NCBI RefSeq assembly: GCF_036324505.1
Contig: NC_086357.1
Span: 19,532,793 to 19,596,792, forward strand
Direction: 5' to 3'
DNA: 64,000 nucleotides
From: Eleginops maclovinus
Lineage: Eukaryota > Chordata > Actinopteri > Perciformes > Eleginopidae
The notes below the pieces were generated by a model. The model did no database searches. It was not told the origin of the DNA and saw nothing but the letters and a program-made list of their open reading frames with translations. How positions within the stretch are numbered: position 1 is the first letter of the stretch; each line of letters opens with the position of its first letter. This document shows, in pieces, positions 3,475-9,400 of the stretch. Both the position numbers and the translations under genes were made by a program.

Positions 3475-6400
3475 GTAAACATACAGTAGTAGCCCTATGC
3501 ATAACAATGCTGTTTTTCACGTGTTTTGAACGTTTCTCTAATGTTTTCAAAACGATCTTTCAGTGACTTCCGGACTGTCGCCACCTACCATTGTATCCAA
3601 CGAAGAAGAGTTCGTCCTGCAGCCCAGTTCCGTGTTCAACATAAGCTGTACCGGCAAAAGAAACGTCGGTTGGGCTGAACCCCTGCCGAAAAACACATTC
3701 GTTCACCCGGGATACTACACGGCGACCCTTTACATTTACAACGCAACTGTAGAAAACACTGGCTACTACATGTGCACCTATCAAACACAGGAGAGTGGCC
3801 TGGAGGGCGAACCGGAAGAAGACAATGAGGCTGGAATATATGTCTTCGTCCCAGGTGAATGACATTTTTTTTCTTCCCCTCTGGTGACAATTGTCATGGA
3901 TTTACTGTGCTTGCCATGCACATCTAAAGTGATACACAGGGACAACTGCTGCCACAAGTAAAACTTAGTAATATGAAATTAAGTAGATCACCTTTGCGCC
4001 CTCATCTCATAACTCAGTGTAACTTCTGTTTCACATCCAGATGCTCAGGCTCCCTTCGTCCCAGAAACCTCTGAAAACTTGGTAGTCCCCATGGAGTCAC
4101 ATGGGGTCCCCATCTCCTGCCGTGTGTCAGACCCCAACTCCCACGTCACCCTGAGGAGTGTCCCCAGTGGAGAGGAGATGCCTGCCTACTATGACAACAA
4201 AATGGGTTTCTTTGCAGGCCTCATGCCTGGGCAGTACCAATGTGAAACCACAGTGAACGGCCACACTATCAGAAGTGTGATTTACACTGTGGAGACTGAG
4301 GGTAAGTCGGGACAAATGTATTGACCATAGAGTGCAGAAAAATGGAACATTTCACATGGTTTGACATTTTCTTAAACTCTTCTGATGTTTTTCATTAAGA
4401 ATCACTTTAAATAATAGGATAATGATTAAAAAACTGCACAGCTGGAATCACTCTTCAATAGTGTTTACCATGAGAGCGCTCTATGATCTCACTCCATGAG
4501 TGCCATGACATTATGTCATTGTCACCGAGGGAGATGACTTAACACGTCTGTTTTAACTCTAAGTGTAAGTGAGTAATAAGGACCTACTGAGCCACCCCTC
4601 TGTGATAAATGAGCGCTTAGTAATCAGGTTGTCTCTATCTTTGGACCTGTGAGATGACAGTGCTGATATCTGCTCTCTGGTGGTTCCTCTAGCCCCTGCG
4701 GAGATGGACGATTTTGACGTGGAAGTCAAAGCCAGTGAGGAGACGGTGAGAGCAGGGCAGTCCTTTAACATCACGTGTTTTGCTCCCATTGGACTGGGCT
4801 TTCAGCAGCAGTGGCTCCATCCCAAAAAACAGGCAAGATGCAGCCCATTTCCTTTCTGTGTTTTTTTTAATGTTATTTCAATGTAGTCTCCAATATGGCT
4901 TCATCCATAATCAGCTTTAATTTACCAGCCTTCGTGTCCTTTTTCCTTCAACCCTTTGTCATATTTCCATGTAATTTCCTACCCAGCAGCACTGAGCCTT
5001 AAATTAGCGAATAATGGTTTTGGACCTAAACCTACTGCAATAGTGGCCAGTGAAATATAGCTCTGAGAATGGCCCTTAGTGGTTACAAAGTATGTGTTAG
5101 GAAGGCAGCAACTGAATGTTGTGTCTTCATTATGAGCACGTAGGCCAAAAGGCTTTTGCTGCAGTTAACCCAAATTATGCAAGATGCTGACGGGAAGTTC
5201 AGGACAAATGGCCTGAGGGGAGCAGGCAGTTGAAAAGAAGGAAAACCAGGATAGTAAATCCTTTGACCCCAGTAACCTAAATACTTGTAGGACAGATGTT
5301 TTCTGCACATGACAGCCAGCTAAACATTTACTGCTTTTGAAGTGTTAGCTTAAAGGATCTGAAATAGTTTCATGTGCTTTTTAGTTTTGTTTATATTTAT
5401 ATTCTCATTCTTAATCTATACAACACGTTGCCTGTTATTCTACGTGGGATTCCTCTGAGCTCTTTTCCAGAGATGGTTAGGGTAGGATTGCTGGAGTCTT
5501 GACTCCTGGTTTTGGTCTCAGTTGCAATTACAGACTTTTAAATGACCCTGTGATCCTGATTTATCTCCTGTGGCCTAGCAAGTGTTTTAACCATTAGTCT
5601 CCAGCTGCAGGACGTGTGCACCAGTTCTCCTACATTGTACCTGTTAACCGGAAGAACACTGAGAGATAAAACATTAAAATATCCTATAACTCAGATGTTT
5701 GTTTTTTTCCGGTGAGTAGGATCTCAAATCTATATTATTCTTCTGCTCTTAATAGGCTATGGGTGCAGTTCAGATAAAGGAAACCTCTCTTGACGGGGTC
5801 ATCTACACCCTGAGGATCCCAAAAGCCACCTCTCAGGACAGCGGCTCCTACGAGTGCTCTATCACCCACGTAATCAGCGGCGAGGTCAAAGTGAGCAGTG
5901 TGGCTGTCACCGTCTTTGGTAAGTCTTTGTCTATTCAGGATACATTTGAATCTGTTTCAGGGAACTGTTGATGTGTGATCACACCACTGACTTACATCCA
6001 CTTAATGTTATATCATCATCATTCAGATACTTTGTCTTGGCCTTACATATGTGCACATGGTGCTCTTTGTGCTGTGTTGATGTCATTTTCTAACACTCGA
6101 CCGTAAAGATTCACCTCTGCTTTCAACATCAGCTACTATGTTTTATGGGATGGCTCCAGCAGATGTTTGTCAAGCAGCAGGCCTTCCATTTACCTTTCTG
6201 TCCTTCCACCTACATCTCAATCCTCAATCTGCTCTTTTTTTAGTCACTGAATCCCATTCTTTATACATTTTAATCCATGATCACTTGCTGGTTGTTAAAT
6301 TATTTTCTGTTTGTCACTTCAGAAGAAAACTCCTTTGTGGCAGTGGATCACAGCGGGATCCTAACATCAGAATTTGTCAGCATCTTGGAAGAGACAGAGT

Positions 6401-9400
6401 ATACCATCCTCATTGATGCCTACCCAGCCCCTAAAGTGCTTTGGCTGAAAGACGGCAAAGCCATGCAACAGACCTTCTACGTCTTCACCAAGACAAGCCA
6501 CCTCGAAGGAAATCGGTGAGAATTAATGTTGGTGATTTATTAATAGATACATTTATGATGCTTTAAAGTTTCAGTTATGACAGCTGTTGATCAGTTTAAA
6601 AAGAGCTAATATGACAATTAAAAAAATACGTACTTTCTTTCCGAGAGATGGATTAGGAGATCCCACTGTCATGTCTGTCATTTATTATGAAGCTGGAGGC
6701 AGGCGACGGTTAGTTGAGCATAAAAACTGGAAACAGGGAAACTAATAGCTCTGTCTGAAGGACACATAACCTGTCTACCAGCAAAGCTCACCAGTCAACA
6801 TGCTCATGTATGAAAATGAAAATTTCCCTCACCAATGTACCAGCGAATATTTTTACTAGGGGCAGTTACTTCCTGAAAGAATCTTTCAGTGCATAACCTC
6901 CTGTGAAAGTACAGTGCCACTTGAACTTTCTAATCAAAAAATAATAATTATCAAGTTTAACATTTGTTGCTAATTTTTTTTCTTACAGGTATCAAAGCAT
7001 TCTGACATTGCGGCAGCCTATGGTGAAAGACAACGGGAATTATACCATCACAGCTATCAGTGGCTCCCGCACAGCTCACTTCTCCTTTATCCTGAAAGTA
7101 AAAGGTAAGATAGATAAATACATACATAGATAGATTTATGATCTATGACTGAGTGCTTTACATGATTCTTTACTTTCCTTCAGCTCCCACTGCAATGATG
7201 TTCCCACCATCCTCAGCCCCTGTGCTGCTGCCCAATGTGGAGGAGAAGGTGGTGCCCCTCCACACTCCTTTCACCTTGACCTGTCGGGGAGAGGCGAAAA
7301 CTAGCCTGGGAGACACCACTGGATGTGCACGAGCAAACACAGGAGGACAACAGTGGCCTGTTTGTCACCACCATCACTGTGGACAACGCCAGTGCAATGC
7401 ACACCGGTTACTACATCTGCTTCTACAGCAGAAATACCACTGACGACAGAGACGACAGCAACATCTACATCTATGTGCCAGGTACGCAGCAAATTTTAGC
7501 ATGGGTGTTTTTATAATTTGACTTTATAATTTGGTTTATTAACTTTTTTTCTTACTCCAAAACAGATCCAGACAATCCCTTTGTGCCGTCCTTGGTGCCT
7601 TTTGGCAACCATGTGCTGTCTGACCAAGAGGAGATGGAGATTCAATGTCGGGTGTCTGATCCCAGTTTCAACGTGACCCTTGTTAACGTTGACACCCAGC
7701 AGCCTGTGCCCAGCTTTTATGACAGCAAGAGGGGCGCTTTGGGAGTATTCACTGCTGGAACCTACGTCTGTAAGGCTGTGGTAAATGGAGAGGAACACTA
7801 CAGCGAGGAATACATCGTCCACGGCTGGCAAGGTGTGTGTGCAACTTTGTAACTTTGCAAGGACATGTGTGTCAAGTCACAAATCAAATCCGACCTACCT
7901 TTGAAATTCTGCTCTGTGTTTTCTCCAGTGGATCTGTGCCCTCACACATTTTGTCCCGGCCTTTTGTTGTATCTCAGGTGGCGCTGCGCTGCATGTTGAG
8001 CTGACAGCCAAACGCACTGCTCTGCTCGTGGGAGAAACCATCACAGTCAACTGTCTGGCTCGGGGATCTGAGATCCTCGAAGACCACTGGAAATACCCAG
8101 GAAAACTGGTGAGAGCACAGGTCATCCTATGCAGCGCCAAAGAAGTGACTCGTGTCCCAAAAGGCCTATTCAAAAAACTCAAAGCTGCTGATTTTCCTTA
8201 TCGTTTTAACAGGCTAATCGTGCTATCAAAACAGTTCATGAGAATAAGAGGAATCAGGAGATCCTTTACACCCTGACAATCCCACAGGCCTCAACCAAGG
8301 ACAACGGCATCTACTCCTGCTCAATCACTGATATCATCAGTAATGACAGCCAGACAAAGGAACTAGCCATTCGAGTTTTTGGTATGAAATCTTTATTATG
8401 TTTACTTGGCATTATCTCATAAATGTGTCTTTTTCCTGTCGTGATGAACTATTACTGATTGTTGGCCTCTCCTATTGTCTAACAGCAAGTAGGTTTTTGT
8501 CCGTCTCACCGGAGTTCGGGGAATATGAATCAGCAGAGCTGGATGAGGTTCGGGAGTTCAGGGCTGAAATCAGCGCTTTCCCCAATGCTCACGTCACCTG
8601 GCTCAAAGACGGCATCCCACTCAGCGACTTGACAGCGGAGATCACCACCAGCCTCCGGCAGCTCAGCGAGACCAGGTGAGTCTAATGACAAGCTAAACAG
8701 TCCCATACATTAACCAGGCCTTTCATTAGGCTTTAGTGCGATAGTGAACTTATATTACTGTGTGTTTATTGCAGTTTCGTTTGTTGTTGTTCTGTTTAGC
8801 TACATGAGTGTTCTTACCCTGATCCGGGCCAAAGAGGAAGACAGCGGGAACTACACCATCCGAGTCGAAAATGGAGAACATATTCGTGATGTCGGGTTAA
8901 ACCTGGAGGTCAAAGGTAAGAGCGAGGAATGCCCCAAACCCTTCATTACCTTTATGTTCTTAGGTACTAGTCTCACAACCTTTTGGCCCAGTTACAGTTT
9001 GTCTTTTCCTCACACACTCTGTCGGACTATGTTTCAGTTCCCGCAGTTATTGTGGACCTGATGGACATCCACCATGGCTCAGCCAAAGGCCAGGCTGTGG
9101 TGTGCATAACCAGAGGGCTGCCCACTCCTGTGGTGGAGTGGTTCGTCTGCAAGAACATCAAACAGTAAGTCTTCTTTAGTGCAACAAAGTTCTGCTCGAC
9201 AGACAACAGAAATAACTTTTGAAACCACATACATGAAGTCATTCGGCCTCTAAATTAATCATATATCTGTGTGCTTATTTTCACATTAAGCTGTGCCAAT
9301 GACACGTCTTCCTGGGTGCCCCTCCCCACCAACTCCACGGAGATCACAATGGACTCGCACTTCGATGAGGAAAGAAACCTGGAGAGTCAAGTGATGTTTG

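Follow-up and report, generated by a model that had tools for sequence, protein, structure and literature searches.

Analysis of a 64,000-nucleotide stretch of the Eleginops maclovinus genome (contig NC_086357.1; hereafter the window) indicates that its PDGFRA gene encodes a receptor with nine immunoglobulin-like (Ig) domains, in which a complete extra copy of domains D1 to D4 (here eD1 to eD4) precedes the normal D1 to D5. In the reading that we favour, with a probability of about 0.72, D1-D5 would form the inner signalling unit of this receptor, and the outer D1-D4 copy would have an extension role without canonical PDGF binding.

Gene architecture

Reconstruction of the pdgfra exons from the DNA yields one signal-peptide exon, followed by six extra exons, the D1-D5 exons and the transmembrane and kinase exons, with a coding span of 13.4 kb and a stop codon that ends at 16848 (Table 1). 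All six extra exons (3564-7104) are open and in frame, and they provide a complete D1-D2-D3-D4 layout upstream of the normal D1-D5. Their phases (1-1, 1-1, 1-0, 0-1, 1-2, 2-1) are identical to those of the normal D1-D4 set once an extra base in the D1 exon is allowed for, which agrees with the equal layout and phase-1 borders that an earlier interpretation of the bare letters (the sequence-only reading) had described. Every acceptor is AG and every donor GT but one, the GC after the first eD3 exon. This GC-AG intron, at 4833-4834 on the 3' side of that exon, has an otherwise strong donor (AG/GCAAGA).

Domain models built solely from 14 five-Ig PDGFRA proteins of sharks, rays, coelacanth and tetrapods read the window protein as D1-D2-D3-D4-D1-D2-D3-D4-D5, and they returned the same D1-D4-D1-D5 order for six of the six ray-finned proteins tested with them (the window protein and five other fishes). 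The two modules of the window protein share 116 of 371 positions (31% identity). These data bear out the extra four-Ig ectodomain that the sequence-only reading had placed ahead of the normal five; its exon account held for the layout and the openness of the extra exons, while some of its exon ends were off by a base and a frameshift in the normal D1 exon had escaped it.

The same exons could in principle belong to two genes, one for a soluble four-Ig protein upstream and the other a normal pdgfra that has a start of its own. A D1-D4 set without D5 would be secretable if transcripts ended early, and ATTAAA is present within introns at 4425, 5673 and 6617. Against this, the modules are linked by an intron of 79 bp (7105-7183) that contains neither AATAAA nor ATTAAA, as had been claimed for it, and a reading of the region, which was not an exhaustive search, found no second signal-peptide exon, in keeping with the single one noted earlier. 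Moreover, the ray-finned proteins found solely in the source 'lgn' are nine-Ig and span both modules in 16 of 16 cases; they are taken as spliced because their contigs (4.7-7.6 kb) are too short for a 13.4-kb span. Of the remaining proteins found only in this source, whose nearest relatives are turtle, frog, ray and rodents, 14 of 14 are five-Ig. Given the single signal exon, the 79-bp intron and the run-through short-contig proteins, the two-gene reading was rejected as extremely improbable.

The normal D1 exon (7184-7481) measures 298 bp, which is not a multiple of three, and no frame is open throughout. The frame changes at an AAAA run around 7296-7299, where frame 2 reads LTCRGEAK and LAWETPLDV follows in another frame. 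The receptor of about 1,468 residues that had been predicted is reached solely when one extra base at this run is allowed for. Most likely, the frameshift is an assembly error. One surplus A within a short run of A is a frequent error of this kind, all other pdgfra exons are intact, and the protein of Chaenocephalus aceratus (P0001, 1470 aa), the closest relative among the matches listed with 89% identity over the extra module, reads through at the site (GEAKLDWATPL). A real allele is possible, as the failure of every frame in the 298-bp exon would suggest; in that case either the D1 exon, with its phase-1 borders, would be skipped to give an eight-Ig receptor in this species or the allele would be broken, an outcome that we consider quite improbable.

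Distribution and origin

Three protein searches returned 135, 459 and 361 matches, and the best 120 of each amounted to 247 distinct proteins, which were split by organism name, or else by nearest named relative, into 183 ray-finned and 64 other entries. By domain models derived from 22 ray-finned proteins, the complete nine-Ig order occurs in 126 of the 183 ray-finned entries versus 0 of the 64 others among the matches listed. Specifically, the 126 (16 of which were assigned by nearest named relative) consist of 123 full cases and three (reedfish and two sturgeon entries) that have the order with an eD2 that scores as D2. The carriers comprise reedfish, sturgeon, gar, bowfin, bonytongues, eels, tarpon and herrings as well as carp, catfish, characins, salmonids, cod and percomorphs. 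The module is retained in every major ray-finned lineage sampled. The 64 other proteins listed, from sharks, rays, coelacanth and tetrapods, are five-Ig and include five named cartilaginous fishes and Latimeria; one search left out proteins above 1225 aa, so that five-Ig forms are shown in those groups and longer ones are not excluded.

The two modules are 48% identical in reedfish and 57% in sturgeon. The gene models of Esox (two entries), Dallia and Kryptolebias (P0104, P0111, P0113, P0116) lack eD2 and have eight Ig domains, which perhaps reflects two separate losses, or else model errors. In Gymnothorax (P0117, 2004 aa), B-box and RING-type Pfam families are joined to PDGFRA, probably through a gene-model fusion.

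In a maximum-likelihood tree of D1-D4 modules (59 rows), the extra modules form one clade (support 98/94) and the canonical ray-finned modules another (100/95), and the two are united against all five-Ig modules and PDGFRB at 100/98 (91 in a quick tree of 60 rows). A topology with an older duplication, in which canonical and five-Ig modules were held together, is worse by 11 log units, with an approximately unbiased test p-value (p-AU) of 0.012 that is somewhat generous, as the tested clade was chosen after the quick tree had been seen. Tree support and topology test place one duplication within the gene on the stem of the ray-finned fishes, once lobe-finned vertebrates had split off. The duplicated unit is bounded by phase-1 introns, one after the signal exon and one before D5. 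Two other origins were tried and rejected. An ancestral nine-Ig receptor with loss in tetrapods is disfavoured by the p-AU value and by the five-Ig forms listed for sharks, rays and coelacanth. A derivation from PDGFRB or VEGFR fails because both best match and tree put the extra module within PDGFRA: among solved structures its top match is the human PDGFRA ectodomain (7lbf_D, 2e-46), and the match to VEGFR1 (5t89) is weaker (1e-26). Of the tree that had been suggested as a check, the comparison of D1-D4 modules with PDGFRA and PDGFRB delivered a single origin, and KIT and CSF1R lie outside it. Together with the 126 of 183 listed entries and the 16 of 16 short-contig proteins, these trees uphold the proposal that an in-frame duplication of D1-D4 without D5 gave a nine-Ig receptor.

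Constraint on the two modules

The extra module (subtree length 10.4) has evolved faster than the canonical one (6.13), by a factor of about 1.7. On a fixed species tree, domain lengths are 11.3, 6.9, 5.0 and 5.7 for D1 to D4 and 12.4, 11.3, 10.9 and 8.3 for eD1 to eD4, and when columns were resampled eight times, the values of the two copies overlapped for D1 and stayed apart for D2, D3 and D4. These lengths indicate that the slow evolution seen in D2 and D3, the pair that binds the ligand, no longer holds for eD2 and eD3, whereas eD1 resembles D1. In the five-Ig group, D1 (5.7) is about as long as D2 (5.6), and comparison with the 11.3 vs 6.9 of ray-finned fishes indicates that the normal D1 has sped up there, as if its role had altered on becoming internal.

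The faster rate might suggest that the extra exons are a functionless relic. This is very hard to reconcile with their long retention as open exons across every major ray-finned lineage sampled, with the presence of the six Ig-core Cys and the three Trp in each of 22 extra modules, and with an eD1 that is no faster than the normal D1 (12.4 vs 11.3, overlapping resamples). The module is therefore old, dating to the ray-finned stem, and constrained, as the sequence-only reading had supposed; neither the relic nor the two genes that it had named as possible refutations emerged.

Individual sites in eD3 set the extra module apart. Positions at which 34-36 of 36 canonical and five-Ig sequences agree are rarely kept in the extra module (E226 in 2 of 22, Y234 in 3 and G236 in 3), and Gln stands at two D3 sites in 22 of 22 extra modules versus 2 and 5 of 36 canonical and five-Ig ones. 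In eD4, an arginine is present in 5 of 22 extra modules versus 36 of 36 canonical and five-Ig sequences; the D4 contact-Arg motif of class III receptors, whose role is known from KIT and PDGFR work, is found in 22 of 22 canonical D4 domains and 5 of 22 extra ones.

Two further functions for the outer copy have to be weighed against these patterns. It might be a second PDGF-binding unit, with two ligand sites per chain that bring a gain in avidity or a built-in decoy. Descent from D1-D4 of the same receptor, the preserved Ig core and the identity still seen in reedfish and sturgeon are compatible with this, but tree lengths of eD2 and eD3 are 1.6 and 2.2 times those of D2 and D3, the conserved E226, Y234 and G236 are changed in most extra modules, and gene models of three species have no eD2. 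The conservation pattern makes a conventional second PDGF site less likely, and we regard this reading as unlikely overall. Alternatively, the module may have gained its own partner, be it a different ligand, a co-receptor or a contact in adhesion, through the D3 motif QxWxHPxxQ, whose two Gln are described above and in which Q230, H234 and Q238 reach at least 90% conservation among 88 aligned sequences. The motif could merely serve the folding of eD3, and we know of no partner of the extra module; a new partner is possible, if tentative.

Transcripts, isoforms and gene models

The 39 ray-finned entries without extra domains all come from UniRef alone, nearly all have ragged N-termini, and they look like projected gene models. 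Their reading as real isoforms was mostly rejected, the signal exon of the gene being joined directly to the normal D1 in just two (P0161, P0164). In addition, Takifugu rubripes P0204 (1078 aa) and Tetraodon P0247 are hybrid five-Ig models (eD1-eD2-D3-D4-D5), which we suspect were forced into the expected five-domain shape.

The extra module would nevertheless be skippable in frame, because each module starts in phase 1, the phase in which the signal exon ends. In the accessible text of one zebrafish study, a pdgfra clone termed full-length has a 3-kb open reading frame in which Y706 equals human Y731 (PMC9977867). The corresponding residue is 696-707 in five-Ig models of the carp family, close to the 706 of the clone, and 1104 in nine-Ig carp, far from it, and the clone's size and numbering, as given there, fit the five-Ig form. 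A second study, in the portion available, locates zebrafish pdgfra exon 14 ahead of the transmembrane domain (PMC5298878), a count that, on this portion, needs the extra exons. From these observations, optional inclusion of the extra module may fairly be inferred. According to the accessible text of the first study, three zebrafish ligands activated pERK, which its authors read as likely Pdgfra signalling, and crispants without pdgfra exon 3 had fewer stromal cells (PMC9977867). If the exon 3 of that text is eD1, the drop in stromal cells would provide evidence on what the extra module does.

Proposed function

The available data are compatible with a model in which the membrane-proximal D1-D5 stays the signalling ectodomain. 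In mammals, PDGF binds at D2-D3 and receptor contacts lie at D4-D5. The outer D1-D4 copy would have given up canonical PDGF binding and, in most fish, D4-D4 pairing, and would act as an extension at the N-terminus that influences how the receptor is reached, how it is spaced or which partners it meets. Some fish transcripts may skip the whole module in frame. A more elaborate version, which we hold only tentatively, is a two-tier receptor in which the inner tier binds PDGF, the outer D1-D4, which evolves separately, engages its own partner via the D3 motif, and the six extra exons act as a skippable cassette, which would let a single gene give rise to two receptors that differ in their inputs.

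Several observations weigh against the proposed extension role or the nine-Ig receptor on which it builds. The normal D1 exon is frameshifted in this assembly, and 57 of the 183 ray-finned entries listed fall short of the complete nine-Ig order (18 with a partial extra module, 39 with none). Among the extra domains, eD4 has the lowest tree length (8.3) and thus gives no sign of having been freed the most. The extra D4 arginine persists in reedfish, tarpon, eel and two bonytongues, which makes its loss a later event that did not reach all lineages. The faster evolution of eD2-eD3 could also reflect adaptive change instead of lost binding. Finally, because only 2 of 39 entries join the signal exon to D1, support for skipping comes mainly from the size of the zebrafish clone.

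Identity and genomic neighbourhood

Several comparisons identify the window gene as the PDGFRA orthologue, judged by its predicted protein. In single-exon tblastn, mouse PDGFRA matches the juxtamembrane-to-tail exons at 66-97% identity (a kinase comparison made without PDGFRB), Pfam Ig_PDGFR_d4 matches at 2.4e-45, and every named match of the first protein search, among the matches listed, is PDGFRA or an unnamed product. Against a 258-position profile, the kinase gives one match that covers residues 592-941 of the canonical protein, which indicates an insert. The split tyrosine kinase of class III receptors is thus present, and in place of exactly five Ig domains there are nine.

Table 1. Reconstructed pdgfra features and their positions in the window
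Feature	Position	Strand	Details	Basis
Signal-peptide exon, coding part	3417..3474	+	ends phase 1; single one found for both modules	exon rebuild; tblastn match to residues 1-16 of Chaenocephalus P0001
eD1, extra Ig domain	3564..3854	+	291 bp, phase 1-1	exon rebuild, domain models
eD2, extra Ig domain	4041..4301	+	261 bp, phase 1-1	exon rebuild, domain models
eD3, first part	4693..4832	+	140 bp, phase 1-0; terminal extra-specific motif QQWLHPKKQ; then GC donor	exon rebuild, domain models
eD3, second part	5756..5918	+	163 bp, phase 0-1	exon rebuild, domain models
eD4, first part	6323..6515	+	193 bp, phase 1-2	exon rebuild, domain models
eD4, second part	6989..7104	+	116 bp, phase 2-1; D4 contact motif degenerate	exon rebuild, domain models
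Normal D1 exon	7184..7481	+	298 bp; +1 frameshift near 7296-7299 in assembly	exon rebuild; open in P0001
Normal D2	7566..7832	+		exon rebuild, domain models
Normal D3	7978..8381	+	exons 7978-8108 and 8213-8381	exon rebuild, domain models
Normal D4	8486..8915	+	exons 8486-8675 and 8800-8915; contact motif intact	exon rebuild, domain models
Normal D5	9038..9487	+	exons 9038-9164 and 9291-9487; not duplicated	exon rebuild, domain models
Transmembrane, juxtamembrane, tyrosine kinase and tail exons	10596..16848	+	to stop codon	exon rebuild; PK_Tyr_Ser-Thr 2e-93

Elsewhere in the window, a 399-codon open frame (stop to stop) at 62448-63647 on the minus strand resembles what we take to be a Tc1-type transposase, and an Rfam scan of the 64-kb window gave zero matches. 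Downstream of pdgfra, at about 34.8-46.9 kb on the plus strand, lies a second gene for a receptor with Ig and kinase domains (about 34800-46900), which is probably a kit gene. Zebrafish pdgfra maps together with kita, kdr and gsx2, as stated in the available portion of PMC5298878.

Relation to known receptors

Nine-Ig PDGFRA sequences are already public under the name PDGFRA. In agreement with the earlier impression that the architecture is undescribed, no account of it surfaced among the matches listed from the open-access full-text literature, the scope of that search (subscription papers lay outside it). PDGFRA is treated as a five-Ig receptor, with fish as models for it, and ray-finned fishes make up about half of vertebrate species. 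If the native fish receptor is nine-Ig, constructs without the four domains, exon-numbered mutants and morpholinos need rereading, and ligand or antibody work does not carry over simply. In turn, one duplication on the ray-finned stem offers a clean natural experiment that asks how a signalling receptor accommodates an extra ectodomain.

Two known forms derive from the same gene. The models of Takifugu (P0204) and Tetraodon (P0247) likewise begin with eD1-eD2 and differ as five-Ig hybrids, and the zebrafish clone, as described in the accessible text of PMC9977867, differs in an open reading frame size and a numbering that fit the five-Ig form. The five-Ig PDGFRA of sharks, coelacanth and tetrapods, a class III receptor, has the same kinase, transmembrane and D1-D5 arrangement, to which the ray-finned form adds four Ig domains N-terminal to D1. 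Class V receptors (VEGFR) likewise carry a long Ig ectodomain, of seven domains, on a split kinase, but the extra domains described here are a copy of D1-D4 of PDGFRA and not the VEGFR layout.

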